The notes under the pieces were generated by a model, which did no database searches, was not told the DNA's origin, and was given only the letters and a program-made list of their open reading frames with translations. Shown in pieces: positions 9,425 through 34,778 of a DNA stretch of 39,364 nucleotides. Each line of letters starts with the position of its first letter. Position 1 is the first letter of the stretch. The DNA is taken from assembly GCA_003599885.1 (NCBI GenBank), contig QZKW01000025.1:1-39364 (forward strand), written 5' to 3'. Made by a program: the position numbers and the translations under genes. Source of the stretch: Desulfobacteraceae bacterium. GTDB taxonomy: Bacteria; Desulfobacterota; Desulfobacteria; Desulfobacterales; Desulfosalsimonadaceae.

Positions 9425-10333
9425 TTACCGCCCTTGTTCCGGTTGGTAGACGTACCCGCCGGTAATGACAGATGTTCCCCACTGGCGGACCGTTTCGTTG
9501 ATTTCTTCTGCTGTTGATTCCATCAGGTACTTCATGAACGGCGCTTTTTCTTTCGGCGGATAGACGACGGGGATCTCCCCCTCAATGCCTCCCAATTCCC
9601 CCGCCCATTCAATCGCGTCTTCAAGATTCCCAAGACGGTCGACAAGCCCGAGAGATTTTGCCGTTTCACCGGAAAAAATACGGCCATCGGCAATTTTTCG
9701 GATCTCCTCCTCCGACTGCTGTCTTCCAGTCGCCACATCCCTGATAAACTGGCGGTGCACATTATCGGAAAATTCCTGAAGCAAGGCTTGTTCCGGTTCC
9801 GTCATTTTTCTTACCGGAGAGCCGATATCCTTATATTCCCCACTTTTAATCACCACCGGATACAACCCGATTTTTTCAAATAAGGACTCAAAATTGGTGT
9901 AACCCAGTATGACCCCGATGCTGCCGGTGATGGTGCCGGGGTTGGCGACAATGCCATCTGCTGCGGCGGCGATATAATATCCTCCCGATGCTGCGATAGC
10001 GCCCATTGAGGCAATGACTTTTTTAACTTTGACCGTTTTCTGAAGTTCACGGTAAATTTCCTGGGAAGGCCCTACCCCCCCGCCGGGTGAATCAATCCGG
10101 ACCACGATGGCTTTGACGTCATCATCTTTTCTGAAATCCCTGATCTGTTCCAGAACCTGCCGGGCATCGGAAATCACCCCCTTGATTTCAATAATACCGA
10201 CTTTTTCCGCAAACAGGCGGTCCGACCGGAAATCTCCGGCCAATGTCAGCATTGACACGATCACCGAACTGCCGGCAATCATTCCAGTAAAAAGAAGTAA
10301 AAAGAACAGATAGGGATGTCTTCGGGAAAACAT
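9425..10333 (-). CDS. sppA: Signal peptide peptidase SppA (short form)
   Basis: 302 aa from ATG at 10333, preferred over GTG at 10345 because AGGTGG lies 8 nt upstream of the ATG. A membrane-anchored Ser/Lys protease that degrades cleaved signal peptides. N-terminal transmembrane segment at ~7-30 (YLFFLLLFTGMIAGSSVIV), then a single ClpP-like S49 domain: RIDSPGGGV (~83-91), the nucleophile serine in GAIAASGGYYIA, and the general-base lysine in VIKSGEYKDIGSP. This is the short (~300 aa) form rather than the 600-aa tandem form of E. coli. It follows rpsA after about 235 bp and ends 9 bp from the convergent YciO-like gene. Confidence 0.93.
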   Translation of the reverse strand: MFSRRHPYLFFLLLFTGMIAGSSVIVSMLTLAGDFRSDRLFAEKVGIIEIKGVISDARQVLEQIRDFRKDDDVKAIVVRIDSPGGGVGPSQEIYRELQKTVKVKKVIASMGAIAASGGYYIAAAADGIVANPGTITGSIGVILGYTNFESLFEKIGLYPVVIKSGEYKDIGSPVRKMTEPEQALLQEFSDNVHRQFIRDVATGRQQSEEEIRKIADGRIFSGETAKSLGLVDRLGNLEDAIEWAGELGGIEGEIPVVYPPKEKAPFMKYLMESTAEEINETVRQWGTSVITGGYVYQPEQGR

Positions 10334-10510
10334 GAATTGGACCACCTGTTGTTTGATTTAGTTAGAATAGAAATAGGGATGAGGCAAAACAAAAATTCCG
10401 CTTCATCCCTATAATATCATCTATGGTACACCGCACGACGTGCAGATTGCGAACAAAACCCGATTACACGTACCGTTAAATCGGATGCAACATCGTTTCC
10501 CGCCTAACTG

Positions 10511-10540
10511 GCTGCCGGTTCTTCCCAATGGGCCGGCAGC
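10511..10540 (-). terminator. GC-rich hairpin after rpsA
   Basis: Perfect 8-bp inverted repeat GCTGCCGG / CCGGCAGC around a 14-nt loop, about 30 nt after the rpsA stop. No U-tract follows on either strand, so it may be a processing or stabilising hairpin between rpsA and sppA rather than an intrinsic terminator. Confidence 0.35.
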
Positions 10541-10568
10541 TTATCAGAAAAGCGTCCTTTGTATCTCG

Positions 10569-12398
10569 TTAATCAGTAATTTCAGTAGGTTCAGCACCAG
10601 CAACTTCAGCAGCCTTTTCTTTTTCTGCTTCCGCCAGCTTTACTTTGCTGCTCAATTTTTCCTGCAGATTTTCTTTTAAAATCGCCCCAAAACTGGACGG
10701 AGCCGGTTGCGATTTATTCACATACTCTTCCAGTATCGACTGATCGTCTTCTTCATCTCCAATCCGCTTGATTGACAATCCGATCCGCCGGTCTTCGGTA
10801 TTAATATTCATTACCTTGGCGGTCAACGTATCACCGACCGCATACTGACCCACCGGAGTCTTAATTTTTTCTTTACTGATTTCCGATACGTGAACAAGAC
10901 CTTCAATACCCTCTTCCAGCTCCACAAAAATGCCGAAATCCGTAATGTTGGTGATCACGCCGTTGATTTCAGTGCCGGTCGGATACCGTTCGGCCACCGA
11001 CTTCCAGGGGTCTTCTTCAAGTTGCTTGATTCCCAGTGAAAACCGCTCATTGGCCTTATCAATATCCAGGACTCTCGCCTGAACCATATCCCCTTTTTTG
11101 TATAACTCGGAAGGGTGTTTGATGCGTTTGATCCAGGAAATATCGGAAATATGCACCAGACCGTCAATATCGTCATCAATACCGATGAAAATACCAAAGT
11201 CGGTAATATTTTTAATTTTTCCTTCGATGGTGGAGCCAATGGGATATTTCTGGCTGATCATTTCCCATGGATTCGGGCTGATCTGCTTCATGCCCAGAGA
11301 AATCCGGCGATTTTCCGGACGGATATCCAGCACGATGGCTTCGACAATATCACCGGCGCTCACGACCTTGGACGGATGACGCACCTTGCGGGTCCAGGAC
11401 ATTTCGGACACATGAATCAGGCCTTCAATGCCTTCTTCCACTTCCACAAACGCGCCGTAATCCGTCAGGCTCACCACTTTGCCGTTCACCCGTGTGCCCA
11501 CCGCATATTTTTCCTTGGCCGTGGTCCACGGATCCGGCACAAGCTGTTTCATACCCAGGGACACTCTTTCGTTTTCCTGATCAAAAGACAGGACTTTCAC
11601 ATTGATCGTGTCGCCCACTTTATACAGTTCGGAGGGATGCTTGACCCGTCCCCATGAAATATCGGTGATGTGCAGCAGACCGTCTACGCCGCCCAAATCG
11701 ACAAAAATACCATATTCCGTGATATTCTTGACCACCCCTTCCATCACCTTTCCTTCTTCGATGGAAGCCAGAGTTGTGGAACGGACGGATTCCCGTTCGG
11801 ATTCCAGAATGGCCCTTCTTGACAGAACAATATTGTTCCGTTTGCGATTGAATTTCAGCACCTTGAAGCTGAGGGTTTTACCGACCATTTCATCCAGGTT
11901 GCGAATGGGTCGCAAATCCGCCTGAGACCCCGGAAGAAACGCCAGAACACCGACATCCACCGAAAAACCGCCTTTGACCCGATTGGTAATCACGCCCTCG
12001 ATAGTGGCATCTGCTTCATGAATGTCTTTGATGGCTTCCCAAACTTTAACTTTGGCGGCCTTTTCCTTTGAAAGGATGACCCGTTCTTCATCTTCATCCC
12101 ACACTTCAATCATGACCTCAACCTGGTCATTCAGGTTGACATTAATTTTCCCTTTTTCATCTTTAAATTCATGAATGGGAATCTGGCCTTCCGATTTATA
12201 TCCCACATCTACAAGGACATAATCTCTGTCTACAGAAATGATGGTGCCGATCACCACTTCTCCCTCTTCAAACTGCTTGAGGCTCTCGTCATACATTTCC
12301 ATCAACGACTCCATGCTTTGACTGGAATCGTCCATGTCCATCGTTGAAAATTCATCATTTTCAACTTCGTTTTCAGAATTGTTTACCATGTTTTCCAT
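10569..12398 (-). CDS. rpsA: 30S ribosomal protein S1
   Basis: 609 aa with six consecutive S1 (OB-fold) RNA-binding repeats from about residue 45 to 560; repeats 3-6 are the most alike, each with a GxVxxITxFGxFVxLxxGIEGLxHxS pattern and an SLGxKQL-type ending. S1 binds mRNA leaders on the 30S subunit and is needed for initiation on weak Shine-Dalgarno messages, of which this window has several. It is longer than E. coli S1 (557 aa), mainly through an acidic N-terminal extension (~1-40) and a charged, Ala/Glu-rich C-terminal tail. GGAGA precedes the ATG. Located between cmk and sppA, the usual cmk-rpsA order. Confidence 0.97.
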   Translation of the reverse strand: MENMVNNSENEVENDEFSTMDMDDSSQSMESLMEMYDESLKQFEEGEVVIGTIISVDRDYVLVDVGYKSEGQIPIHEFKDEKGKINVNLNDQVEVMIEVWDEDEERVILSKEKAAKVKVWEAIKDIHEADATIEGVITNRVKGGFSVDVGVLAFLPGSQADLRPIRNLDEMVGKTLSFKVLKFNRKRNNIVLSRRAILESERESVRSTTLASIEEGKVMEGVVKNITEYGIFVDLGGVDGLLHITDISWGRVKHPSELYKVGDTINVKVLSFDQENERVSLGMKQLVPDPWTTAKEKYAVGTRVNGKVVSLTDYGAFVEVEEGIEGLIHVSEMSWTRKVRHPSKVVSAGDIVEAIVLDIRPENRRISLGMKQISPNPWEMISQKYPIGSTIEGKIKNITDFGIFIGIDDDIDGLVHISDISWIKRIKHPSELYKKGDMVQARVLDIDKANERFSLGIKQLEEDPWKSVAERYPTGTEINGVITNITDFGIFVELEEGIEGLVHVSEISKEKIKTPVGQYAVGDTLTAKVMNINTEDRRIGLSIKRIGDEEDDQSILEEYVNKSQPAPSSFGAILKENLQEKLSSKVKLAEAEKEKAAEVAGAEPTEITD

Positions 12399-12496
12399 TA
12401 AATATCTTCTCCTTTAGCCGAATTTTTATACTGTCAGGCTTAGCCGGATCAGTATAACCAATCGTCTATAACAGGCATTTTTTTAAAACTCAATCA

Positions 12497-13180
12497 TTAA
12501 TTATTGACTTCTGCTATTTTCTTTTTCACAAAGTCCAGCATGTGCGCAATGATCTGATCCACAGAAAGATGGGTTGAATCTATCAAAATAGCATCATCTG
12601 CGGGCTTGAGCGGCGCTTCTTTCCGGGACGAATCATTTTGGTCCCGGCGTTCCATGTCTTTTTTTACCTCTTCAAAATGCTGGGGCGACCGTTTTTCTTC
12701 AAGTTCCCGGTGCCGCCGCAAAGCCCGTACCGATAAATCCGCCGTCAGAAAAAATTTGATGTCCGCTTCCGGAAACACGACCGTTCCCATATCCCGGCCT
12801 TCGAACACCGCGGCTTTTTCAGCGCCCAGCTTCCGCTGCACTTCCAGAAGCGCCCTTCTCACCACCGGCCGGGCCGACACTGCCGACGCCATCATGGACA
12901 TCTCCGGCGACCGGATGTGACCGGAAATATCAACGCCCCCGGAATACAGGCGGGCACCGCCTGCGTCACGGATAAACCGCAAATCCAGGTTTTGACACAT
13001 CGTTTCAAGGCCCGCATCGTCTTCCGCGGCCATACCACGGGTTGTTGCCTCAAATGCCACGCCTCTGTAAAGCGCGCCCGTATCAATATAATTGTATTCC
13101 AGCCGATCGGCCAGCGCCTTGCTGACAGTTGTTTTTCCCGCCCCTGCCGGGCCGTCGATGGTGATGAGCAGTTTACGCAT
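12497..13180 (-). CDS. cmk: Cytidylate kinase
   Basis: 227 aa. Phosphorylates CMP/dCMP with ATP. P-loop DGPAGAGKTT at residues ~9-18, the CMP-binding segment YIDTGALYRGVA (~31-42), EGRDMGTVVFPEADIKFFL (~124-142) and the lid RRDQNDSSRKEAPL (~178-191). Its ATG lies inside the hisC stop region (8-bp overlap), indicating translational coupling, and rpsA follows after about 100 bp. Confidence 0.97.
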   Translation of the reverse strand: MRKLLITIDGPAGAGKTTVSKALADRLEYNYIDTGALYRGVAFEATTRGMAAEDDAGLETMCQNLDLRFIRDAGGARLYSGGVDISGHIRSPEMSMMASAVSARPVVRRALLEVQRKLGAEKAAVFEGRDMGTVVFPEADIKFFLTADLSVRALRRHRELEEKRSPQHFEEVKKDMERRDQNDSSRKEAPLKPADDAILIDSTHLSVDQIIAHMLDFVKKKIAEVNN

Positions 13181-14282
13181 TTGCTTTCTCCCGGTTTTTT
13201 AATACCCGTTCCAATGCCTCCAAAAAACGGGCGTTTTCCGCGTGCGTCCCCACTGTCACCCGGATATACTCCGGATAGCCGTATGACACCATTGATCTGA
13301 CGATGACCCCCTGGCGAAGCAGCGATTCAAACACATCCCGGGCGCTTTGTTTCACATCAATCAGAAAAAAATTGGCCTGGGTGGGAAACCACCTGATCCC
13401 CATTTTCGTAAGTTCATCCTGAAGAAATTTCAGCTCCGAACGAATCAGTTCCCTGGTTTCGCGCAGGAATTCCTCGTCATCCAGAGCAGCCGCGGCTGCC
13501 GCCTGGGCCAGGGAATTGGTATTAAAGGGTTGCCGCACCCGATGAAGCATTGCCGCCATTTCAGACGGCATCATCCCGTAACCGATCCGGATTCCCGCAA
13601 GCCCATACGCTTTTGAAAAGGTCCGCAGTACCGCAATCGGCCGGTCATCGGAAAGGACCTTGAGTCCGTCGAGACAGTCCAGATCACTGGCAAACTCTAT
13701 ATAGGCCTCGTCAAGCACGACCACCACATGCGACGGTATCCGGGCCATAAATGCCTCAAACTGTGCGGCAGTGATATGCCCCCCTGTGGGATTGTTGGGG
13801 TTGGTGATAAAAATCATTTTTGTTGTTTCCATGACCGCTTCCGCCATGGCGGCCAAATCCACGGTCAGCCCGTTTAACGGCACCATAACAGGTGATGCAC
13901 CCACAGTTCGCACAAAAATTTCATACATTAAAAACGACGGGGACGTCATGACAGCTGTGTCTCCGGGCTGAAGATACACCCTGGCCAGCATGCCGATCAC
14001 ATCATCCGAGCCGTTTCCCAGCACGACCTGGTCGGGCCTTACCCCAAGTCTTGACGCCAGCTTGCTTGTCAAATAATAACCGCTGGCATCCGGATACCGA
14101 TGCAGATTCGACAGTGCTTTTTCAATGGCCGCCACCGCTTTGGGTGAAGGTCCTAATGGATTTTCATTGGACGCCAGTTTGATGGAACCTGCGATACCAT
14201 ACTCCCGTTCCACTTCTTCAACGGGTTTGCCGGGTGGGTATGGTTTGATGGACAGAATGTTATCAGCTGGTTTTATTTTCAT
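13173..14282 (-). CDS. hisC: Histidinol-phosphate aminotransferase
   Basis: 369 aa from ATG at 14282 (an in-frame TTG lies 15 bp upstream). A PLP-dependent fold-type I transaminase that converts imidazole-acetol phosphate to histidinol phosphate. Motifs: LASNENPLGPSP near the N-terminus, GNGSDDVIG (~90), FITNPNNPTGG (~155-165), LDEAYIEFA (~190), and the PLP lysine in RTFSKAYGLAGIRIGYG (~218-234). Overlaps cmk by 8 bp and follows the LpxL-type gene after about 50 bp. No other histidine gene is nearby, so aromatic amino-acid transamination is an alternative or additional role. Confidence 0.93.
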   Translation of the reverse strand: MKIKPADNILSIKPYPPGKPVEEVEREYGIAGSIKLASNENPLGPSPKAVAAIEKALSNLHRYPDASGYYLTSKLASRLGVRPDQVVLGNGSDDVIGMLARVYLQPGDTAVMTSPSFLMYEIFVRTVGASPVMVPLNGLTVDLAAMAEAVMETTKMIFITNPNNPTGGHITAAQFEAFMARIPSHVVVVLDEAYIEFASDLDCLDGLKVLSDDRPIAVLRTFSKAYGLAGIRIGYGMMPSEMAAMLHRVRQPFNTNSLAQAAAAAALDDEEFLRETRELIRSELKFLQDELTKMGIRWFPTQANFFLIDVKQSARDVFESLLRQGVIVRSMVSYGYPEYIRVTVGTHAENARFLEALERVLKNREKANA

Positions 14283-14332
14283 CGGGCTTATTCCCAAATT
14301 TTAAATTGTCAAATGAATGCTCAAACAGGTAA

Positions 14333-15223
14333 TCATGCTTTTGGACGGGTTTTCCACCGCCGATGCACCCAGAACCATTGTTCCGGATACCGCCGGATGA
14401 CATCCTCCAGCACACGGTTATACTGAAGGGTGTTGGCTTCAATGTCCTTTGCTTTATCGCCGGACCGGACAAGGGGCAGTATCGGCCCGAATTCCACCCG
14501 GAACCGGCCATCTTCCCTGAGTAAAAACAAGGGGACAACCGGCGTTCCGGTTCCCAGCGCCAGCAGGGCCAGTCCCTTGTTGGTGCAGGCCGGGTGCCCG
14601 AAAAAATCCACAAACACGCCAGCGTTCCGATGGGTGTTCTGATCCAGCAGAATAGCGACCAATTCTTTATTTTTCAGACCTTTTAATATGGGACGCATGG
14701 CGTTTTTCTTTGAATGAAGCGTTACCCCATACCGCCCTCTTAAATCGATAAAAAACCGGTCCAGGGGCTTAAAATCCAGCGGCCGGTAGATGGCGCTCAT
14801 GGGGTATCCCAGCGTGGCGGCAGCCAGTGACATCAGTTCCCAGTTTCCCACATGCCCGGTTAAAACCAGAACCCCTTGTCCTTTTTTATAAGCATCTTGC
14901 AAATGATGCAGCCCGTGAATCGAAAAGAACCTTGAAAAATCTTTTCCTGAAAGCCGCGTTATCCATCCGATTTCAAATAGAATGCACACCATGTGGACAA
15001 ACGCGGACCGGGCCAGACGCCGGATATCCGCAGGACTCTTTGAACTGCCGAAGACACGGGTCATATTTTCCAGCGCCACTTGACGGTGCCGCCCATCGAC
15101 AACAAACCACACCCGCCCAATCACGCTTGAAATATTCCGGGCCGAATTCCGGGAAAACCGTCCCAGCAAGCTAAAAAAGCCTAAGATGATCCGATAAGCA
15201 ATGGTTTCCAGGTAAGTGTTCAT
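14333..15223 (-). CDS. Lipid A acyltransferase, LpxL/HtrB family
   Basis: 296 aa. Late acyltransferase that adds a secondary acyl chain to Kdo-lipid A on the inner face of the cytoplasmic membrane. A hydrophobic N-terminal anchor (~7-25) is followed by the catalytic H(x4)D/E motif as GHVGNWE (~120-126), the IYRPLD segment (~142), a LLDQNTHRNAGVFVDFFG block (~190) and a C-terminal PEQWFWVHRRWKTRP, all typical. First gene of the lpxL-hisC-cmk-rpsA-sppA group; no Shine-Dalgarno is evident before the ATG. Which acyl position it modifies cannot be told. Confidence 0.9.
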   Translation of the reverse strand: MNTYLETIAYRIILGFFSLLGRFSRNSARNISSVIGRVWFVVDGRHRQVALENMTRVFGSSKSPADIRRLARSAFVHMVCILFEIGWITRLSGKDFSRFFSIHGLHHLQDAYKKGQGVLVLTGHVGNWELMSLAAATLGYPMSAIYRPLDFKPLDRFFIDLRGRYGVTLHSKKNAMRPILKGLKNKELVAILLDQNTHRNAGVFVDFFGHPACTNKGLALLALGTGTPVVPLFLLREDGRFRVEFGPILPLVRSGDKAKDIEANTLQYNRVLEDVIRRYPEQWFWVHRRWKTRPKA

Positions 15224-15430
15224 AAAATAAAATTAACCGATTGTTAAAAACCGTCTGTTTGTTAACCGACAGGACTTCATACATATGCTTTGGGCAACGC
15301 CTGATCCGGTGCTGAGGCTTTTTTCCGTATCATATCCCAACCGAACCTGCAATCCAAAATCAGTGGATTTTTGTTTCCCAAAGCACCATCCATCCCGATT
15401 CTACCCTACTGCCATAACATACATTACGCC

Positions 15431-15460
15431 TTGACAACCTTGTCAGTTTACAGATATTTA
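15431..15460 (+). promoter_or_regulatory. Promoter candidate with overlapping dyad, upstream of MFS gene
   Basis: -35 TTGACA (15431-15436), 18-nt spacer, -10 TATTTA (15455-15460). A palindrome TGACAA-CC-TTGTCA (15432-15445) covers the -35 box and would be a natural operator. If real, transcription starts near 15467 and excludes the upstream TTG at 15371 as the translation start of the transporter gene. Confidence 0.4.
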
Positions 15461-15475
15461 CCCTTTACCGGCAAA

Positions 15476-16816
15476 ATGGAAATAACCCGTGATGCATTGT
15501 TTGATATGACAAAAAAACCCTCTCAGCTGCCTCCGGCCCGGGTCTTCTGGGGCATCAGCACGTTTCAGGCCCTGGCCATGTTCCGGCGCGGGCTGTTTTA
15601 CGCTTTTTTGTCGATTTACCTGCGGTTTTTTCTGGGTCTGTCCGTTACCGAGACGACTCTGTTCGCCACCTTGCCGATGATTTTTAACATCGGCGCCCAG
15701 ACCCTGATATGGGGCCGGTTATCGGACCGGAAACAACTCCGGCGGACGCTGATTCTGTGGGGTGAAGGGTGCGGAGCCGCCGGCACCGTCCTGATCTGGG
15801 CGGTTCATGTTATGGCGCCCAGCCCCGGATTGGCCGGTTACGCGATCATCGCAGGATTGACGATTGTTGAAGTTTTCTGGTCCATGAGCAATATCGGCTG
15901 GAGCGCGCTCATCTCCGACCTTTATCCTCAAAAAGCGCGTAACGCCAAGTTGGGCTATCTTACCAGCATCGGCGGAGCTGGCCGCTTTATCGGTATCTGG
16001 ATCGGCGGGGCCTTCTATGATGGTTTCGGGAAAATGTATGACGGGTGGGGATTTCATTCAGGCCTCCTGTTTTTTATTCCGGCAGCCGTGATGCTGATAT
16101 CCATGCTGCCGGTGATGATGCTGCCTGAAGGCGGCGTCCGCCTTGAAGAAACGTCTGAATATAATTGCAACGCCGACTGCCAGGCCGCATCCATCCGCCT
16201 GTTCTGGATATTCCTGGTCGCTATGGTGTTTATCAATTTCGGACGCAACGGGGTCGTGGTCATCCAGTCCCAGTACCTGTTTTTAGACACCGGGTTTGGC
16301 GTTTCCAGCCGGATTCTGGGCCATATATTCAACGTCGAATCTCTGGCTATTATCCTCTTCGGCTTACTGGCCGGCCGGATTGGCCGATGGATCGGAGACG
16401 GGCCATCCGTTTGCCTGGGCGCCATTATCGCCATGATTTATTTGATTATTTTCGGACTTACCGACGATTTGCGTCTGATTTATGCCGCCAGTTTTTTGCG
16501 CGGCGTGGCGGACGTCATCCTTATGGCGGCATCCTATGCTTTCGCGTCTGTTTTGATTCCACCGGAACGCCGGGGCGCTCTGTTCGGATTGTTTAATGCC
16601 ACCTTGTTCCTGTCCTGGGGCGTTGCAGGAACGCTGATCGCCGGTCCCACTGTTGACGTCCTGCTCTATCTGGGCACTGACCCGGTCTCTGCCTACCGCG
16701 CCGCTTTCTTGTCCGGCCTTGTAATGGTGGTCATCGGCCTTGCAATTCAGTCCTGGATTGTATTCGTCAAAATGCCTGCCACTGTTCTTTTAAGAAATGA
16801 AAAAGGATTCCAATGA
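15476..16816 (+). CDS. Major facilitator superfamily transporter
   Basis: 446 aa from ATG at 15476; ATG at 15506 (436 aa) is equally possible since neither has a Shine-Dalgarno. About 12 hydrophobic segments in two halves with a central cytoplasmic loop (around residues 200-225). The MFS loop 2-3 signature appears as GRLSDRKQLRR after TM2, and a related GLLAGRIGRWIGDG segment occurs in the second half. Substrate unknown. The stop overlaps the next gene (DUF374 acyltransferase) by ATGA, so the two are coupled; a role in moving a lipid or a lipid precursor is an inference from that neighbour only. Confidence 0.8.
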   Translation: MEITRDALFDMTKKPSQLPPARVFWGISTFQALAMFRRGLFYAFLSIYLRFFLGLSVTETTLFATLPMIFNIGAQTLIWGRLSDRKQLRRTLILWGEGCGAAGTVLIWAVHVMAPSPGLAGYAIIAGLTIVEVFWSMSNIGWSALISDLYPQKARNAKLGYLTSIGGAGRFIGIWIGGAFYDGFGKMYDGWGFHSGLLFFIPAAVMLISMLPVMMLPEGGVRLEETSEYNCNADCQAASIRLFWIFLVAMVFINFGRNGVVVIQSQYLFLDTGFGVSSRILGHIFNVESLAIILFGLLAGRIGRWIGDGPSVCLGAIIAMIYLIIFGLTDDLRLIYAASFLRGVADVILMAASYAFASVLIPPERRGALFGLFNATLFLSWGVAGTLIAGPTVDVLLYLGTDPVSAYRAAFLSGLVMVVIGLAIQSWIVFVKMPATVLLRNEKGFQ

Positions 16817-23957: not shown

Positions 23958-24049
23958 TTATAAAACGAACCGCATGGGCACAGAGGGAGAGATAAAACAA
24001 CCACCGCTGCCGTCTCCGCCGATCCTTTCGCTGGAAATTGACCTGCAGG
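23958..24049 (-). pseudogene. Displaced C-terminal Gly-rich CFI tail of PKD gene 1 (out of frame)
   Basis: Minus-strand reading in another frame gives GGDGSGGCFISPS followed by a short end, stop at 23958. This matches the in-frame C-terminus of the paralogue (seven Gly, then CFISS). The upstream gene stops at 24050 just after its last Fn3 repeat, so one indel near 24053-24062 would separate body and tail. The nearby terminator suggests that 23958 is the ancestral gene end. A sequencing or assembly indel is an equally good explanation. Confidence 0.7.
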
Positions 24050-26338
24050 TTATGGTCCGCAATATCCTGAATCAAATGCGCTGTACCCGCTGGAACCCCA
24101 GGAATTTCTGGCCTTGACCCAGTAATAGTAGGTAGTTGCACAAGTAGCGTCATTATAGGAAATCGCGGGGCTCTTTACCGTGCCCAGAAGCACCGGCACA
24201 CCTCCCAAATACGCAGGCTGAGTGGCTCGATATACCTCGTAAATCAGCGCACCGGGCACGGCATTCCATGTCAGCGTCACTTTTCCGGAAACGGTTCCGT
24301 CCGTTGCAGATACGCCGGTTGGCGCAGAAAGTACGGGAGAGGCGGTTCCGGTATATCCGGTATCAAATTTGCTGTATCCGCTGGGCCCCCATGAGTTTCT
24401 CGCTTTCACCCAGTAATAATACTGGTTGCCATTTACCACAGTGGTATCGTTATAAGAAGTCGTGGTGGAGGTGCCGATATTTCTAATGTTGCCCCCGAGA
24501 TATGCCGGGTAATCGGCGCGATAAATTTCATAAACCAATGCGTTGGGAACAGCGGTCCATGTGACACTTACCATACCGGATCCCCCTCCGTCTGTCGCGG
24601 AGACACCAGTCGGCACTGACGGGACGGAACTCGCAATCCCCCAATACCCTGGGTTAAACATGCTATATCCGCTGCCGCCACTGGCATTTTTGGCTTTGAC
24701 CCAATAATAATACTGGCTGCCGCTTACTGCCGACATATCATCATAGGTGGTGCCAGTGACAGATATGGCAATCCGCGTGGGAACGCCGCCCGCCCAGGCC
24801 GGCATATTGGCCCGATAAACATCATAGGACGTTGCGCCTGCTGAAGGGTTCCAAGTCACTTGAACCTTACCGGACGGTGTCCCGTCCGAGGCATTGACGC
24901 CGGTTGGTGCGGAAGGGGTATTCGAGCAGGATAAATCGCTGCCATTACAATCCTGGTCGATGCCATCCCCGCATATTTCAGTGGCGCCAGGATGTATCTT
25001 ATTGTTATTATCATTACAATCACCCTGATTTTCCGTATACCCATCACCGTCATCATCCACATTATTGGGATCAGTGGTGCCCTGCTGAACAGTAATTTTA
25101 ACGGTATCCGTGTCGGATAATCCGCCGTTGTCCGTCACCGTCAACTGATACAGAACCCAGCCGCTTTTGCTCGGGGCCGTAAAACTCGGAGTAGCAGTTG
25201 AAGCGCCGGTCAGGGTCGGATTAATGTTTCCCCCTGAAGCCATCCACTGATAACTGACGATCTTGTTTTCCGGGTCGGTTGAAGCCGATCCGTTGAGCTG
25301 TACCGTGGCGCCATAAGGAACGGTTTGATCCGATCCTGCGTTGGCGTTCGGTGGGGCGTTATTCCAGGGAACGGTTACGGTCACACTATCGGTATCCTTT
25401 TTACCGCCCGCATCCGTCACTGTAAGATGAAACACCAGCGAACCGGAGGGTCCGGTTAAATCCGGCGCCGTAAACGTGGGATTTGAAGCTGCCGGATTGG
25501 AGAGCGTCACGCTGGCGCCTTCCGCCTGTGCCCATGCATAGGACACTCCGGCACTGGATCCGGATCCGTTCAGAGTAACCCTTTGATTTTCATTCGCGGT
25601 CTGATCAGTGCCGGCATAGGCCAGAGGCCCAAGACTGGTGCAAACAGTGCTGTCTTCGGCCGTGGTGAAGGTTTCGTACCCTTCGGCCATCCAGTCATCA
25701 ATCCCGTCGGTCATATATTTGACTTTCAAAAAACCCTGACCGGCCAGACTGTTGGCCGCGCCTTCACTTTTTGCGCCGGTTTGATCATAAACCAGAACAT
25801 CCATTGTCTTGTAAGCACTCAGACCGGCTGTACTGGTCGTAAACGTCTGAGACGATGAATTCCACACATAATTTTTGGCGCAAAGCAGATGGCTTGTCGC
25901 AAATTGGGCAGCCTCGCTGACGTCAATTACCAGGACGTCCCGGCTGCCGTCAAGCAGGGTTTTGGCCCCCTGAAGCGAGATCCCCTGGGCCTTTAGCACA
26001 AAAGTCGCTGTCACTGTCTTGCTTGCATCCATCGTAAGATTTATCGGGTTTGTGCTGCCGCTAATCGCCCCTCCCCAGGAACCTAATTTATAAAGGGAAT
26101 TCGTTGCTACGGCTTCCAGTTTCAAGACTTGATTTGTAGCATACCCACAGTTCGGCGTATAATTAACGCCGTTGACCTTGACGACCCCAACATTTGCTGG
26201 ACTGACATTCACGGTCAGTACTGGTCCGCCTCACCCGCCGGATGCCTCATTTGGCGCTACTGTGTATATGGTCAGGATGGCCACCAGAAAGCCAATACCA
26301 AATAAGCCTCGCCTCAACCACAATCCAGCTTTTTTCAT
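24050..26338 (-). CDS. Secreted PKD/Fn3/MopE-motif protein 1, predicted selenoprotein (Sec36)
   Basis: 762 aa if UGA at 26231-26233 is read as selenocysteine. Start ATG at 26338 has GGAGAGGG 4 nt upstream. Order: signal peptide (1-32, FGIGFLVAILTIYTV core, cleavage likely after NEA), Sec36 in SGG-U-GGP, a divergent InlB-like repeat (~43-117), a rhodanese-like domain (~119-224) with the catalytic Cys replaced by Asp185 (VYDQTGAKS), two PKD domains (~239-418), a MopE-type acidic motif (~424-467, DDDGDGYTENQGDC then CGDGIDQDCNG, likely metal-binding), and three fibronectin type III repeats (~475-760), each ending SWG-SGYS-FD-GY or similar. Function unknown; an exported surface or matrix protein. 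The reading frame stops early relative to its CFI tail (see 23958). Without UGA decoding, only a signal-less product starting downstream would be possible. Confidence 0.75.
25541..25960 (-). repeat. Copy A of long direct repeat shared by the two PKD genes
   Basis: DNA encoding the rhodanese-like domain and first PKD domain is highly similar to 27711-28121, with long identical runs, for example around the YMTDGIDDWMAEGYE codons. Evidence of a relatively recent tandem gene duplication or of gene conversion. Confidence 0.8.
26201..26219 (-). promoter_or_regulatory. Putative bacterial SECIS hairpin, PKD gene 1
   Basis: Minus-strand RNA: 11 nt after the UGA, stem ACUGAC / GUCAGU (6 bp, perfect) with loop CGUGAAU. 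Distance from UGA to loop is 17 nt and the loop has G at position 2, within usual bacterial SECIS ranges. The same element occurs in the paralogue with a G-C closing pair instead of A-U. Confidence 0.6.
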
Positions 26339-26402
26339 GAATCCCTCTCCTTCGTCTTAGTGTCACTGAAAAAATTAAAACCTACTCAAATAAAGCTTCA
26401 AC

Positions 26403-26432
26403 ATAATAAGGAAACGCGTTCTGCCTTGTCAA
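26403..26432 (-). promoter_or_regulatory. Promoter candidate for PKD gene 1
   Basis: Minus strand: TTGACA (26427-26432), 18-nt spacer, TATTAT (26403-26408, 5 of 6). Gives a ~57-nt leader to the ATG at 26338. The segment before the -35 (ATTGTTTGAC) is shared with the candidate promoter of PKD gene 2. The rest of 26339-26586 holds the terminator below and no gene. Confidence 0.6.
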
Positions 26433-26510
26433 ACAATTAATCAGCGGATTTTAACCAATGAGTTGTCTGCCTCCTCCAGAGAACAGAAAGGAACCGTTGG
26501 ATTCAAATAG

Positions 26511-26556
26511 AAAAAAATCCCCGCAGTACGTCAATCCTCTGCGGGGATTTTTTATC
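26511..26556. terminator. Rho-independent terminator after PKD gene 2
   Basis: Near-perfect stem AAATCCCCGCAG / CTGCGGGGATTT with T-runs on both strands, 31 bp after the stop of PKD gene 2. Its stem core is identical to the terminator at 23906-23946, consistent with duplication of a whole transcription unit. Confidence 0.85.
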
Positions 26557-26586
26557 TGTTCATTAACCGTGACCGATGATAAATAG

Positions 26587-28524
26587 CTATTCGATCACAG
26601 AGGAGATAAAGCAACCGCCTCCGCCGCCACCTCCGCTGGATTTTGTAACAGTGACGTTCATTGCATTCGCCGGCGAAATCAGTCCTTTATTATCCGTAAC
26701 CGTCAGAGAGAATACAAATATAGTTGTGCTGTCAACAGCCGGAGCGGCAAATGTGGGTTTTGCGACAGAGTTACTGGATAAGGTTACTGCAATTCCGGTT
26801 GCATCCGTCTGGCTCCATGCATAACCCGCAACAGTTCCGTCCGGATCTGACGAGCCGGTTCCATCCAAAACAACCGTTGCCCCCGATTTGACGGACTGGT
26901 CCGGACCTGCATCTGCCGTTGGCTGCTGGTTCGGAATGACAGCGCCATCGTCATTGACAGTGACCATAACCGTATCGGAGTCCGTTGCGCCATCGTTATC
27001 GGTTACAGTCAGTGTAAAAGTCAAAACAGTTGCCGCACTGACGCTGGGCGCCGTGAATGTTGGCTGAACAGCAAACTTACTGGATAACGTCACCGCCGGA
27101 GATCCGCCGGTTTGATTCCATTCGCGAGTTGTGATGGTCCCATCAATATCGGTTGAGCCTGAGCCGTTCAGCGTGACGGTTCCTCCTTCCGTCACTGTTT
27201 GATCAGCTCCGGCATCAGCAACAGGCGACTGGTTGACAGGTTGGCCGGGCGGTTGAATGGTGATTGTAACCGTATCCGTATCTGACAATCCGCCATTGTC
27301 CGTCACGGTCAATGTATAAATCACGAAGCCGCTGGTGCTGGGGGCCGTAAAACTCGGGGTAGCGGTTGCCGGGTTAGCAAGAACCGGACTGATGGTTCCA
27401 CCGGATGCAACCCACTGATAGCTGAGCGCATTGTTGTCCGAGTCGGTTGAAGCCGATCCGCTCAGTTGCACCGTGTCGCCGTACTCGACGGTTTGAGGTG
27501 CACCGGCATTGGCGGTCGGTGCGACGTTATTCCATCTAACCGTCACCCGAACACTGTCCGTATCTTTTTTGCCGCCGGCATCAGTCACTGTAAGATGGAA
27601 AACCAGCGTATCGGTTGCTGCAGGTCCATTTAAATCTATCGCCGTAAATGAGGGATTCGGAGCCGTGGCGTCAATTGTGACACTATTGCCTTCTTTCTGT
27701 TCCCAGGCATAGGACACTCCAGCACTGGATCCGGAGCCGTTCAGAGTAACCTGCTGATTTTCATTCACTGTCTGATCAGTGCCGGCATATGCCAAAGGAC
27801 CAGGGCTGGTGCATTCAGCACTGTCTTCAGCGGTGGTGAATACTTCATACCCTTCGGCCATCCAGTCATCGATTCCGTCGGTCATATACTTGACTTTCAT
27901 AAAGCCCTGACCCGCCAGATTTTTGGCCGCGCCTTCACTGTTAGCGCCGGTTTGATCGTAAACCAGGACATCCATTGTTTTATAAGCACTCAGACCGGCT
28001 GTACTCGGTGTAAAGGCCTGTGAGTTGCTGTTCCAGACATAATTTTTGGCGCAAAGCAGATGGCTCTTATCGAATTGGGCAGCCTCGCTGACGTCCAGCA
28101 CCAGAACGTCACGGTTGCCGTCAAGCAAATTTCTGGCACCATTGAGATCAAGCGCAACAGTCGGGATATTTAATACAAAATAGGCGGTCACGCTTTTTGG
28201 GACATTGGTTACAGTAATGGGACTCGTGGTTCCGCTGACATCTCCTCCCCAATGATCAAACCTGTAATTTGCTGAAGAATTTGGAACTGCCGTAAGTTCA
28301 TATGAAAGTGCGCACGTATAGATTTGAGGATTTGTTGTCATTGGAATGGAAAATTGCGGTGATGTAATAATCCCGCTATTTGTAGGGCTGACAGCCACGG
28401 TCAGCGGTGGATTCCCTCAGCCGGCCTCAGCAGTTACAGGCGTCATGAAACATAAGGTTATAAAAATCAGAAAAAAGGCCTTCAAAAACAGCCTGGCATT
28501 TGAACATATGTCATTTTTTTGCAT
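26587..28524 (-). CDS. Secreted PKD-domain protein 2, predicted selenoprotein (Sec36), CFI tail
   Basis: 645 aa if UGA at 28417-28419 is selenocysteine. ATG at 28524 has GGAGAG 7 nt upstream. Order: signal peptide (1-34, core FLKAFFLIFITLCFM, likely cleavage near TAEA), Sec36 in EAG-U-GNP, an InlB-like repeat (~40-120), a rhodanese-like domain (~124-230) with Asp190 in place of catalytic Cys (VYDQTGANS), four PKD/REJ-type domains (~240-628) and a C-terminal tail of seven glycines followed by CFISSVIE (Cys638), resembling the CFI-box tails known on bacterial exported proteins. Paralogue of the gene immediately downstream; it has four PKD domains and no Fn3 or MopE parts. Function unknown. The alternative reading, a signal-less protein starting at GTG 28398, leaves the in-frame signal peptide, ribosome-binding site and promoter unexplained. 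Confidence 0.78.
27711..28121 (-). repeat. Copy B of long direct repeat shared by the two PKD genes
   Basis: Partner of 25541-25960; encodes the same degenerate rhodanese-like domain and the following PKD domain. The 3' halves of the two genes differ in domain content, so similarity is concentrated here. Confidence 0.8.
28387..28405 (-). promoter_or_regulatory. Putative bacterial SECIS hairpin, PKD gene 2
   Basis: Minus-strand RNA: 11 nt after the UGA, stem GCUGAC / GUCAGC (6 bp, perfect), loop CGUGGCU. Same distance, stem length, loop length and loop start (CGUG) as in the paralogue. Part of the pairing is dictated by codons for the shared LTV-x-VS peptide, so the element needs independent support. 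Confidence 0.6.
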
Positions 28525-28584: not shown

Positions 28585-28614
28585 AACATAAAGAAGCCGT
28601 CGTTAGCTGGTCAA
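28585..28614 (-). promoter_or_regulatory. Promoter candidate for PKD gene 2
   Basis: Minus strand: TTGACC (28609-28614), 18-nt spacer, TATGTT (28585-28590, 4 of 6). Leader of about 54 nt to the ATG at 28524. The -35 context ATTGTTTGAC matches that of PKD gene 1. Confidence 0.45.
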
Positions 28615-28871: not shown

Positions 28872-28994
28872 TGTATGAACTTTTTTTCCGCCGTGCATGA
28901 TACGGCAGTCATTAATCGATCATCACATCATTTATAATATTCATTAATCGGAATGGGTCCTGGATCAAATGGATCATGTTTTCTGGAGGATGCT

Positions 28995-29879
28995 ATGGAT
29001 CTGAAGCGCAGCCTGGAAGCCGGGGATTTTGTCGTTATCGCGGAAATGGAGCCGCCGAAAGGGGTGGATATCACCGCAATGGTCAGCAATGCGACAAAAG
29101 TCAAAGAAGAAGTCGCAGCCTTTATGGTGCCTGAAATGAGTAATGCGGTGATGCGCATGAGCGCTCTGGGGGGCGCCATGATTCTTCAGGGGAAACGGAT
29201 GGATACCATCATGCAGGTCTGCTGCCGGGACCGGAACCGGATCGCACTTCAGGCTGATCTTCTGGCTGCGTCCGCGTGCGGCATCCGGAATATCATGGCG
29301 GTAACCGGCGAAGCCCCCAGTTTTGGCGACCATCATCAGGCAACGGCCGTTTATGATATCACGATTGATGAATTATTGCAGACCATCCAGGGACTTCAGA
29401 CAGGTAAAGATATGGCGGGCATCGAGCTGACGGGTTCCCCGGAATTTCTGGTCGGATCAACCGTCAACGCCGGACTGGAGGGGAGCGCCCTGTCTCAGGA
29501 GATTGAGGCCATGAAGCGCAAAATCGACGCCGGGGTCCGCTTTTTTATCACGCCTCCCGTGTTTGACGTTGCCGCCATGGAGCCATTTATGTGCGAGACT
29601 GCGTCACAACACATCGATACAAAACATATTCATATCATTCCCTCGGTCGTGCTGCTCAAATCCCTGGGCATGGCCCGGTATATGGCTAAAAACATGAAAC
29701 ATATCCGCATTTCCGACGCCCTGATCAAACGCATCCAAAACGCGCCGGACAAGGTGCGGGAATGCGTCCGGATCGCATCTGAGACAGTCTCGGACATCAA
29801 ATCCAATGGGTTCAGCGGAGCCATGATTTCCACCATGGGTTGGGAAGACCGGCTTCAAGATATTATTCACGGCATCTAA
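28995..29879 (+). CDS. Methylenetetrahydrofolate reductase-like protein (MetF family, copy 1)
   Basis: 294 aa from ATG at 28995, which has GGAGG 5 nt upstream. FAD-dependent TIM-barrel of the MetF family, which interconverts 5,10-methylene- and 5-methyl-tetrahydrofolate. Visible: the catalytic-Glu region [10 protein letters not shown] (~15-24), [16 protein letters not shown] (~75-90), [16 protein letters not shown] (~100-115) and [12 protein letters not shown] (~180-191), where the family usually has FxxTQxxF. It is diverged from the second MetF at 35533, which retains QTQ. First gene of the cluster, 16 bp before hdrA. It may be a true reductase or a C1-related paralogue partnering the Hdr module. 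Confidence 0.82.
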
Positions 29880-29895: not shown

Positions 29896-32800
29896 ATGGA
29901 TCAAAAATCCGAACCTGTGAAGATTTCATCCAAGAACGATACCGTCGGCTCGGCCATGGTGGTCGGGGCCGGCATTGCAGGCATGCAGGCGGCCATTGAT
30001 CTGGCCAATTCAGGATATTATGTCTATCTCCTGGAAAAATCATCCGCCATCGGCGGGCTTATGTCACAGCTCGACAAGACCTTTCCCACCAATGACTGCG
30101 CCATGTGAGTCATCTCACCCAAACTGGTCGAGGTCGGCCGGCATTTAAACATAGAACTGAGAACCGGAACGGAAGTACTGGCGCTTGAGGGCGAACCCGG
30201 AAAATTCAAAGCGAAAATCCGCCAGGAAGCCCGGTATGTGGATCTTTCCAAATGCACCAGCTGCGGCGAATGCGCCAAAGTCTGCCCCATTGATGTGTCC
30301 AACGAACAGGACAAGGGTTTGTCCACCCGCAAGGCGGTTTACAAAAAATATCCCCAGGCCATCCCCGGCGCGTTTGCCATCAGCAAACGCGGCACCGCGC
30401 CCTGCAAAGCCACCTGCCCGGCCCATGTCAGCATTCAGGGATACATCGCCCTGATCCATCAGGGCAAATACGCGGAAGCATTAAAACTGTTTAAGCAGGA
30501 CCACCCGTTTCCGGGAATCTGCGGTCGGGTTTGTCACCATCCCTGCGAAGGCATCTGCACCCGGAACGATTATGACGAGCCCCTGGCCATCCGGGAACTC
30601 CACCGGTTCCTGGCGGATTGGGAACACACTCAGGAAGCCCCTTTTGTCCCCGCAGTCCCTGAAAAAAAGGATGAAAAAATCGCCATCGTGGGTTCCGGGC
30701 CCGCAGGCCTGGCTGCCGCCTATTTTCTGGCCCTCCAGGGCTACGGCGTCACTATTTTTGAAAAACTGCCGGTGGCGGGCGGCATGATGGCCGTTGGCAT
30801 CCCCGAATACCGGCTTCCGAGACATATCCTGAAAGATGAAATCGAAACCATTGAAAAAATGGGCGTGACCATCCGGACAGGGGTGACCTTCGGCAAGGAT
30901 ATCACTCTGGACAGCTTGAAATCCGACGGTTTTTCCGCTGTTTTCATGGCCATCGGCCTGCATGGCGGGCGCCGGCTCGGGGTCAAAAACGAAGACGTCG
31001 AGGGGGTCCTTCAGGGCGTTGATTTTCTGAGGGATGTGGCTCTCAATAATCCGGTGTCTATTGGTGACGACGTTCTGGTTATCGGCGGCGGCAACGTGGC
31101 CATTGACGTGGCTCTGTGCGCCAAACGCAAAGGCGCCAAAAACGTGACCCTGGTCTGCCTGGAAGCCAGAGACAAGATGCCGGCCTGGGAGCATGAAATC
31201 CGGGAAGCCCTGGAAGGAGACATCAAGATCGTCAATAACTTCGGGCCCAAGGACTTTTTTATCGACAGCAGCAACCGGGTATCGGGCATTGAATTCAAAA
31301 CCTGCACGGCGGTGTTCGATGAGAACGGCCGTTTCAACCCCAGTTATGACGAATCCGCCTGCCAGGCGTTTTTCGGCGACACCATCATTGTGTCCATCGG
31401 GCAAAGCACCAACCGGGAGTTTATCGCCGAACAAGGCATTGCGCTGACCCGGGTGGGCGGTCTTGAGGCCGACCCGGTAACGCTTCAGACACCCATCGAC
31501 TGGGTTTTTGCCGGCGGGGACGCATTTTACGGCCCCAAATCCGTAGTGGACGCAGTTGCCTGCGGCAAGGAAGCGGCGGAAAGCATCCACCGGTTTTTAA
31601 ACGGCCTGGATTTACGGGCAGACCGCGAAAAAGTATGGGAATATGAAAAACCCGAAATCAAAAATGAACCGATGAAATTGCGGACAAACGTCCGCTGTCT
31701 GGATCCGGCCGCCCGGGAATGCAATTTTCTGGAAGTTTCCTTTGGCTACAATGAAAGCGAAGCCAAAGCCGAAGCCGACCGCTGCCTCAAATGCGGCATC
31801 TGCTCCGAGTGCTACCAGTGCGTGGACGCCTGCCTTGCCGGCGCCATCGACCACTCCCAGAAAGCGATTGAGGAAATTGTGGACATCGGGTCCGTTATTC
31901 TATGCCCTGGAAACGATGTGTTCGACCCGTCCACCCTGGATGATATTTATCATTATAAGACCAGCCCCAACGTACTCACCAGTCTGGAATTTGAACGCAT
32001 CCTTTCCGCATCCGGCCCCACCATGGGTCATCTGGTGCGGCCGTCCGACAAAAAGGAACCGGAACGCATCGCCTGGCTCCAGTGCATCGGCTCCCGGGAC
32101 AATAACCGGTGCGGCAACGGCTATTGTTCATCCGTATGCTGCATGTACGCGGTCAAAGAAGCCATGATTGCCAAGGAGCATTCCAAGAATCCTCTAGACA
32201 CCGTGATTTTCAACATGGATATCCGGACGTTTGGCAAGGATTATGAAAAATATTATCTCCGGGCCAAAAACGATGACGGTGTGCGATTTGAAAAAGCCAG
32301 AATCCATACCATTGATGAGATCGGTGACACCGGTAATCTGAGACTCCGGTACGCAGAGGAGTCCGGCGCCATCCGGGAAGAAGAATTCGACATGGTGGTT
32401 CTGTCGGTGGGTCTTCAGGCGTCTCCATCCGCCATTCACACGGCCAAACTTCTGGACATTGATCTGGATAAAAACAATTTTGCCGTCACCCACCCCTTCA
32501 CGCCCGTGGAAACCAGCCGGCCCGGCGTTTTTGCCTGCGGTGTTTTCCAGGGGCCCAAAGACATCCCATCCTCGGTCACTGAAGCCAGTGCCGCAGCATG
32601 CGCAGCCGGCCGTTACATGGCCGAAGGCCGGGGCACCCGCGTCAAACAGGTGGATGTGCCTGATGAAATTGATGTCAGCGGCGAGCCCCGCATCGGCGTG
32701 TTTGTCTGCGACTGCGGCATTAATATCGCCGGCATTGTGGATGTGCCCGGCGTCCGGGAATACGCCACCACCCTGCCGAACGTGGTCGGCGCCTACGAAA

Positions 32801-34350: not shown

Positions 34351-34778
34351 GTCTGGAATTTGAGCCCGTTATTCTTGCCTTCTGCTGCAACTACTGAGGG
34401 TATTCCGCTGCGGACCTGGCAGGTTCGATGCGACTGAATTATCCCACCAGTATCAAAATCGTCCGTGTGCCCTGCACCGGAAAAGTCGATGTGCTTCATA
34501 TGCTCCGGGCTTTTGAAAAAGGCGCTGACGGCGTATGCGTCATCGGATGTATGGAAGGCGACTGTCATTTTAAATCCGGAAATTTCAGGGCCCGCAAGCG
34601 GACGGAACAGGTGGCGAAAATTCTCGACACCATCGGCGTGGGCGGCGGCCGGGTCAAAATGTATAATCTCTCTTCCGGCGAAGGCCCGACCTTTGCCCGA
34701 TATGCCAATGAAATACATGGAATCATAATGGATCTGGGACCCAATCCCATCAAATTAAAAAAGGATAAGGCCGCGTAA
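34347..34778 (+). CDS. mvhD: MvhD/FlpD family protein, selenocysteine-containing
   Basis: 143 aa, read through UGA at 34395-34397 (Sec17). The N-terminus FCCNY-U-GYSAADLAG matches the MvhD/FlpD FxCNWCxYxxADLAG signature with Sec in place of the second Cys. Further motifs: IVRVPCTGKVDVLHML (~36-51) and VIGCMEGDCHF (~64-74), a [2Fe-2S]-binding Cys set. MvhD transfers electrons between a hydrogenase, formate dehydrogenase or other donor and HdrA. The ATG overlaps the hdrA stop (ATGA). No hydrogenase subunits MvhA/G are present here, so the electron donor must be encoded elsewhere. Starting at the ATG at 34428 would drop the metal-binding N-terminus. Confidence 0.93.
34412..34426 (+). promoter_or_regulatory. 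Putative bacterial SECIS hairpin in mvhD
   Basis: 14 nt after the UGA: stem GGACCU / AGGUUC (6 bp, one G-U) with loop GGC. Small loop but correct placement and a leading G. Confidence 0.5.

Follow-up and report, generated by a model that had tools for sequence, protein, structure and literature searches.

The bacterial selenoproteins with known roles that are catalogued in PMC13188914 are mostly redox or metal enzymes. Table 1 of that review includes HdrA and MvhD as selenoprotein families and lists rhodanese-like selenoproteins in forms 1–5, with the motifs UxxS, UxxG, CxU, UxxG and UxxxxU, respectively. Here, we describe two tandem genes, A and B, in contig QZKW01000025.1 of a Desulfobacteraceae bacterium. 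Both lie on the minus strand of the window, the whole stretch of 39,364 nucleotides (nt) that was analysed, and all coordinates are positions in it unless another contig is named. Judging from their sequences and those of their relatives, genes A and B very probably encode exported selenoproteins with selenocysteine (Sec, U) at or near the mature N-terminus.

In-frame UGA codons and the hairpin behind them

A preliminary description of the window, made from the sequence alone, had proposed a family of exported selenoproteins on the basis of a UGA at codon 36 in both genes. Direct reading confirms the in-frame UGA, with a signal-peptide-like segment before it and a long frame after it (609 open codons in gene A and 726 in gene B). 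The glycine flanks, EAG-U-GNP in gene A and SGG-U-GGP in gene B, and the GGAGAG-type ribosome site before each ATG were likewise found as claimed. The N-terminal parts of the two genes share 62% identity. As to promoters with a common −35 context, ATTGTTTGAC does occur upstream of gene A and of gene B, but promoter-like sites are not in excess over shuffled sequences in the A/B region (8 versus a shuffle mean of 6.2, standard deviation 2.8, by consensus scan).

Homologues were sought with profiles in 116 related genomes, 395 genomes of the phylum and 389 of the order (overlapping samples), reading through any stop codon. The A+B profile matched 38 of the 116 related genomes at E ≤0.001, many through later domains only; matches reaching the site hold one TGA, except one that starts at model position 28. 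The wider searches of phylum and order contributed members from further families. Read one by one, the matches give a family of 33 members, which come from 17 genomes that carry five family labels (f1, f53, f67, f70 and f137). The start codon of each member was taken to be the ATG closest to a point 34 codons before the UGA. Its named relatives (three loci) belong to Desulfobacterales/Desulfobacteraceae assemblies. A single UGA stands at the site in all 33 members, 31–38 codons after the ATG (codons 32–39). Codon 36, exact for genes A and B, is family-wide merely the commonest place (spacing of 35 codons in 13/33 members, 34 codons in 9/33). Among the order matches listed as starting at or before model position 30, 32 of 34 hold one TGA, one a cysteine and one neither. 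Under the same limit, seven of the phylum matches listed hold a TGA and seven are stop-free (G311 twice, G360, G452, G437, G120 and G401). Five of these stop-free places were examined: in G360 the site holds neither Cys nor UGA, G452 has a lipoprotein-like start and another layout, and the rest had no readable signal-peptide start. Where the InlB-type domain is all that a protein has in common with the family, Cys and UGA can both be absent (G544, G360), so Sec appears confined to this subfamily.

The check for homologues with Cys or UGA, suggested in the preliminary description, yielded a cysteine form besides the 33 UGA forms. In genome G524, the paralogue L203, which offers a natural control, follows a UGA member in tandem, has a strong ribosome site and carries TGT at codon 37 (PAAAT-C-YDRLTVKVDP). 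The hairpin described below is altered in L203, where the CGUG loop is absent, GUCGAC replaces the GUCAGC arm and another short hairpin forms. L203 also lacks the cysteine that its UGA neighbour carries 35 residues after Sec.

Independent support for the exported selenoprotein family comes from a feature absent from the preliminary description, a hairpin of the Sec insertion sequence (SECIS) type. It takes the form GCUGAC-CGUGnnU-GUCAGC, or a near form, in 33/33 members; the stem has 6 base pairs in 31 members and 5 in two, and the 7-nt loop always starts with CGUG. The UGA-to-loop distance is 17 nt in 24 members, 20 in six, 23 in two and 26 in one, and therefore the shape of the hairpin is kept despite codons inserted before it. 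According to the bacterial SECIS (bSECIS) model in PMC13188914, the apical loop is 3–9 nt, the upper stem 4–16 bp, a G stands first or second in the loop, the UGA-to-loop distance is 16–37 nt and the minimum free energy is ≤ −7.5 kcal/mol. All 33 hairpins agree with this model in loop, stem, loop G and UGA distance.

Pairing was found in 98.6% of 144 cells across 24 aligned members, versus at most 50.7% in slid versions, and both sides were altered in three of the six pairs, giving six compensatory cells. The codons forming the hairpin are nearly fixed across the 33 members (CTG in 32, ACC in 29, GTG in 33, GTC in 32 and AGC/AGT in 31); elsewhere in the same genes, GTG and GTC are each used at 0.30. 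The commonest-codon sum over the L, T, V, V and S codons reaches 153/165, compared with a mean of 59.8 and a maximum of 77 in 2000 simulations with each gene's own usage; as the members are related and hence do not count as independent, this comparison yields no exact probability. Translated, the hairpin gives the protein motif LTVxVSP. A covariance model built on the UGA and the hairpin returned 24 matches at E <1e-3 in the 116 related genomes, each a known member or the new G015:C273; gene B scored E 2.4e-10, and the ensemble probability of its hairpin is 0.78. Weaker covariance matches (E 0.04–0.5) were rejected: 14 of the 15 listed have or adjoin a locus, and among the 12 such loci examined six with a readable UGA-hairpin frame close to the centre are non-members, the others having no such frame.

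The genome encodes the machinery whose presence the preliminary description had proposed checking: selA (608.8 bits), selD, two selB genes over cut-off and, as selC, two tRNA-Sec genes with a UCA anticodon. Among the other carriers tested, tRNA-Sec was found in 12/13 and selB over cut-off in 8/12. The UGAs that the preliminary description had reported in HdrA and MvhD are present in the window, at Sec sites of a known kind. The selD of the host genome holds one in-frame TGA, i.e. it is itself a Sec form (G000 contig C2, 71353–72273, L215). A second Sec operon lies on G000 contig C28 at 9500–16000 (L010, L212), in the order HesB-like gene, tRNA-Sec, divergent selB and lipoprotein-like rhodanese-type gene; tRNA-Sec and selB are paired in this way in G001 (C150) and G008 (C108) as well. 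A role for this second pair as a dedicated decoder of the family was rejected: only the host genome, G001 and G008 show it among the carriers examined, and G004, with its three family members, carries a single selB.

The predicted mature N-terminus and the proposed role of selenocysteine

In the mechanism that we propose, the ribosome would make a signal peptide of approximately 31–38 residues and then meet the UGA, where SelB and Sec-tRNA-Sec would insert selenocysteine, guided by the hairpin in the codons of the first beta strand (LTVxVSP). It is highly probable that Sec is actually inserted there. Cleavage would leave a mature protein with Sec at position 1 or 2. Signal peptidase sites follow the −3/−1 rule, and a fitting site lies directly before Sec in 20/33 members, one residue before it in 12/33 and two before it in 1/33; cleavage at or one residue before Sec is thus likely. 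The remainder would consist of extracellular beta domains strung together as modules (InlB-type, PKD, fn3, SdrD_B), in many cases together with a rhodanese-like domain and a CFIS tail. A location at the cell surface is reasonably likely.

In gene A, the predicted order is signal peptide, Sec, InlB-type domain, rhodanese-like domain, PKD domains and a Gly-rich CFIS tail; gene B has signal peptide, Sec, InlB-type, rhodanese-like, PKD, MopE-type and fn3 domains. The profile of the divergent InlB B-repeat, PF18998, was not among the matches of gene A or B at E 0.01; in ten other members scanned, it was listed in nine and over cut-off in six. An AlphaFold2 model (4 rows; mean predicted local distance difference test score 79.4, predicted template modelling score 0.65) shows beta strands followed by the rhodanese-like part. 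A Foldseek search of this model against the PDB returned nothing at E ≤0.001, the best matches being rhodanese proteins (E 1.7e-3). C-terminal parts vary widely among members (PKD, rhodanese, SdrD_B, fn3, DUF5719-like), which gives the Sec leader the look of a module. Of the 30 complete members, 14 finish with a Gly/Ser-rich CF[IV] tail, which reads CFIS in gene A. This tail resembles a short sorting signal and is also present in L052, where no UGA match was noted. Behind the stop of gene B, at 23958–24023 on the minus strand, lies an out-of-frame IGGDGSGGCFISPSVPMRFVL, apparently a CFIS-tail remnant; the gene B orthologues L072 and L073 stop where gene B itself does.

A cysteine occurs 28–42 residues after Sec in 26/33 members, versus a Cys content of 0.77% over the remainder of the chains, and for this reason a Sec-Cys pair is proposed: outside the cytoplasm, at the free end of the protein, Sec and the first-domain Cys may join in a selenylsulfide or hold a metal between thiol and selenol, a suggestion to which we give somewhat less than even chances. 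More tentatively, signal peptide, Sec and first strand might constitute a portable, selenium-gated leader joined to differing extracellular domain chains. Since selenium-short cells would stop after the signal peptide, the surface coat would then depend on an ample supply of selenium. It is equally speculative that, with such a leader, the hairpin would dictate the first mature strand, and Sec would be a bonding or metal-binding end group, not an enzyme active site.

Two other functions for Sec were weighed. It could be a covalent attachment site for a lipid, a cofactor or an envelope cross-link, which we regard as unlikely, albeit the more serious of the two: in 33/33 members Sec marks the predicted signal peptidase boundary, the remaining protein is freely variable, and nearly half of the complete members end in the Cys-bearing tail. 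Lipidated residues are preceded by a lipobox of the pattern [LVI][ASTVI][GAS]. This fits 0/33 of the sequences before Sec, so a lipoprotein was rejected, and the free first-domain Cys of 26 members would be superfluous for an attachment site. Less probable still, and quite unlikely, is that Sec supplies the missing catalytic residue of the rhodanese-like domain in selenium or sulfur transfer. Asp (VYDQTG in genes A and B) does replace the expected catalytic Cys in 4/4 aligned rhodanese-like domains, and PF00581 matches genes A and B as well as 5/10 other members scanned; the other five have no such domain and keep Sec. Sec as part of a rhodanese active site was also rejected on position, being at residue 36, with the domain starting at residue 126 or 132.

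Other readings of the UGA

Several observations weigh against decoding as Sec or against the Sec-Cys pair. Only a single Cys form was found, which is unusual for a selenoprotein family. The carrier without a detected tRNA-Sec is G009 (76% complete), and no SelB over cut-off was found in G006, G007, G012 and G014, though all four have tRNA-Sec; G006 is 97% complete, and the SelB search scored part of its candidates only. These carrier counts omit G524, G572 and G635, and the SelB count omits G454 too. Isolated hairpins range from −3.2 to −7.3 kcal/mol and 0/33 reach −7.5; folds of 48 nt from the UGA reach it in 24/24, the folded stretch intended by the bSECIS model not being stated in the available text, and are no stabler than shuffles (mean z −0.04, 24 members). 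Global folding stability failed as evidence for the hairpin, in place of which comparative evidence was used. The gene A hairpin has an ensemble probability of 0.07 (mean 0.84), a rival predicted fold winning. No Cys falls at +28 to +42 in seven of the 33 members: in two, a Cys lies at most three residues from Sec; in four, there is one at +67 to +88; and in L109 the 99 residues that follow Sec contain no Cys.

The weak gene A hairpin would suit a real stop at the UGA, with the leader alone being made or a restart at a downstream GTG giving a cytoplasmic protein; the first start codon behind the UGA is indeed GTG in both genes (26212 and 28398). We nevertheless consider a real stop very improbable. 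The stop at the site is UGA in 33/33 members, yet the genes end in TAA (12), TGA (12) or TAG (6) in the 30 complete members; the hairpin is under codon-level constraint; termination would strip domains of extracellular type of their signal peptide; and the tandem Cys paralogue keeps this frame uninterrupted, with a Cys codon. That the genes are decaying and the UGAs arose by nonsense mutation or faulty assembly has a negligible probability: the genome is in 90 contigs and a CFIS remnant lies out of frame behind gene B, but the same codon recurs in frames that are otherwise long and open, and third-position changes are the most numerous in four of five signal-peptide pairs and tied in the fifth. 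The argument of the preliminary description that two chance nonsense mutations at one place are improbable is strengthened by the 33 members, and as the UGA recurs in 17 separate genomes, sequencing error is not a live explanation. Reassignment of UGA (e.g. to Trp) or general leakiness, for which no support was found, is just as remote, as UGA is also the terminal stop of 12 among the 30 complete members, the paralogue has Cys at the aligned position, and a tRNA-Sec with UCA, selA, selB and selD are present.

The reading of the UGA as Sec holds up for genes A and B, whose features are collected below. The HdrA and MvhD UGA genes lie beside an MTHFR gene at 28953–29879. A further candidate selenoprotein, an exported protein with a heavy-metal-associated-type domain and the motif IIPGCG[AS]-U-GA followed by PKD-like sequence, was observed in two genomes, G111 and G046 (L042, position 1093, plus strand; L054, position 1120, minus strand).

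Coordinates of genes A and B, their predicted features and two further UGA sites of the window
Feature	Position	Strand	Remarks
Gene A	26587..28524	−	645-codon frame, ATG at 28524, ends TAG
Gene A promoter-like site, TTGACC-18-TATGTT	28585..28614	−	consensus scan
Gene A signal-peptide-like segment	28420..28524	−	35 codons, end ...TAEAG; judged from translation
Gene A UGA, codon 36	28417..28419	−	read as Sec
Gene A hairpin GCUGACCGUGGCUGUCAGC	28387..28405	−	loop 17 nt after UGA; encodes LTVAVS; ensemble probability 0.07
Gene A Cys codon, first beta domain	28312..28314	−	residue 71, Sec +35; proposed Sec partner
Gene A rhodanese-like domain, residues 132–223	27856..28131	−	PF00581, 32.7 bits, cut-off 22.2
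Gene A C-terminal tail SSGGGGGGGCFISSVIE	26590..26640	−	read from translation
Gene B	24050..26338	−	762-codon frame, ATG at 26338, ends TAA
Gene B promoter-like site, TTGACA-18-TATTAT	26403..26432	−	consensus scan, 11/12 matches
Gene B signal-peptide-like segment	26234..26338	−	35 codons, end ...NEASGG; judged from translation
Gene B UGA, codon 36	26231..26233	−	read as Sec
Gene B hairpin ACUGACCGUGAAUGUCAGU	26201..26219	−	loop 17 nt after UGA; stem-base A-U not G-C
Gene B Cys codon, first beta domain	26147..26149	−	residue 64, Sec +28; proposed Sec partner
Gene B rhodanese-like domain, residues 126–218	25685..25963	−	PF00581, 33.3 bits, cut-off 22.2
HdrA UGA, NDCAM-U-VISPK	30106..30108	+	known Sec-site kind, downstream hairpin
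MvhD UGA, CNY-U-GYSAADLAG	34395..34397	+	known Sec-site kind, downstream hairpin

Relation to described selenoproteins and exported proteins

The family appears to be undescribed, by one review catalogue, NCBIfam 20.0 and searches of an open-access library. No family of this kind is among the 119 families and subfamilies in Table 1 of PMC13188914, which has no row with PKD or InlB-type domains, and the available text of that review does not contain 'signal peptide', 'secreted' or 'PKD'. The matches in NCBIfam 20.0 were all of PKD or rhodanese type and fell short of the respective cut-offs, and no description of such secreted selenoproteins was found in the open-access library searched. None of the nine new families of the deep-Sep paper is of this kind in the part of PMC12013277 that is available. 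The usual annotation would truncate these genes at the UGA, losing the signal peptide. If Sec is confirmed, the family would raise the question of the role of selenium outside the cytoplasm of anaerobes and provide a clear example of a protein motif imposed by an RNA signal.

Several known groups share single features with genes A and B. Generic exported proteins with InlB B-repeat (PF18998) and PKD domains have the same domains, but those of InlB type in G544 and G360 lack the UGA, the hairpin and a Cys at the site. The Gly/Ser-rich C-terminal tail is reminiscent of GlyGly-CTERM and MYXO-CTERM proteins, the latter with an invariant Cys, as far as the available text of PMC3237569 and PMC11980579 describes them. 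However, CFIS with its 4–5-residue tail is without the hydrophobic helix and basic end of those signals; L208 and L209 end in a helix-like basic tail. Hypothetical protein DG (NF049953, motif GUxG), in the available part of PMC12013277, has in common the Gly-Sec-x-Gly motif and relatives among sulfate reducers; it was rejected as a relative, its profile giving two chance-level matches in the genome (E 0.05 and 0.47), neither on the contig of the window.

Genes A and B also contain a rhodanese-like domain, as do the rhodanese-like selenoproteins, the listed forms of which belong by name to that domain. In contrast to these, Sec lies approximately 90 residues before the domain, whose pocket has Asp, and the rhodanese model NF041203 scores approximately 17 bits against a cut-off of 115. 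With bacterial selenoproteins such as FdhA, HdrA and SelD, the family shares the UGA, the SECIS-type hairpin, SelA/B/C/D and a Cys homologue. Here, selenocysteine would start large, exported, adhesin-like proteins, the decoding signal being built into the first beta strand. Unlike in catalogued selenoproteins, Sec would thus be placed where a modular exported protein begins after maturation, and not within any recognized enzyme domain.

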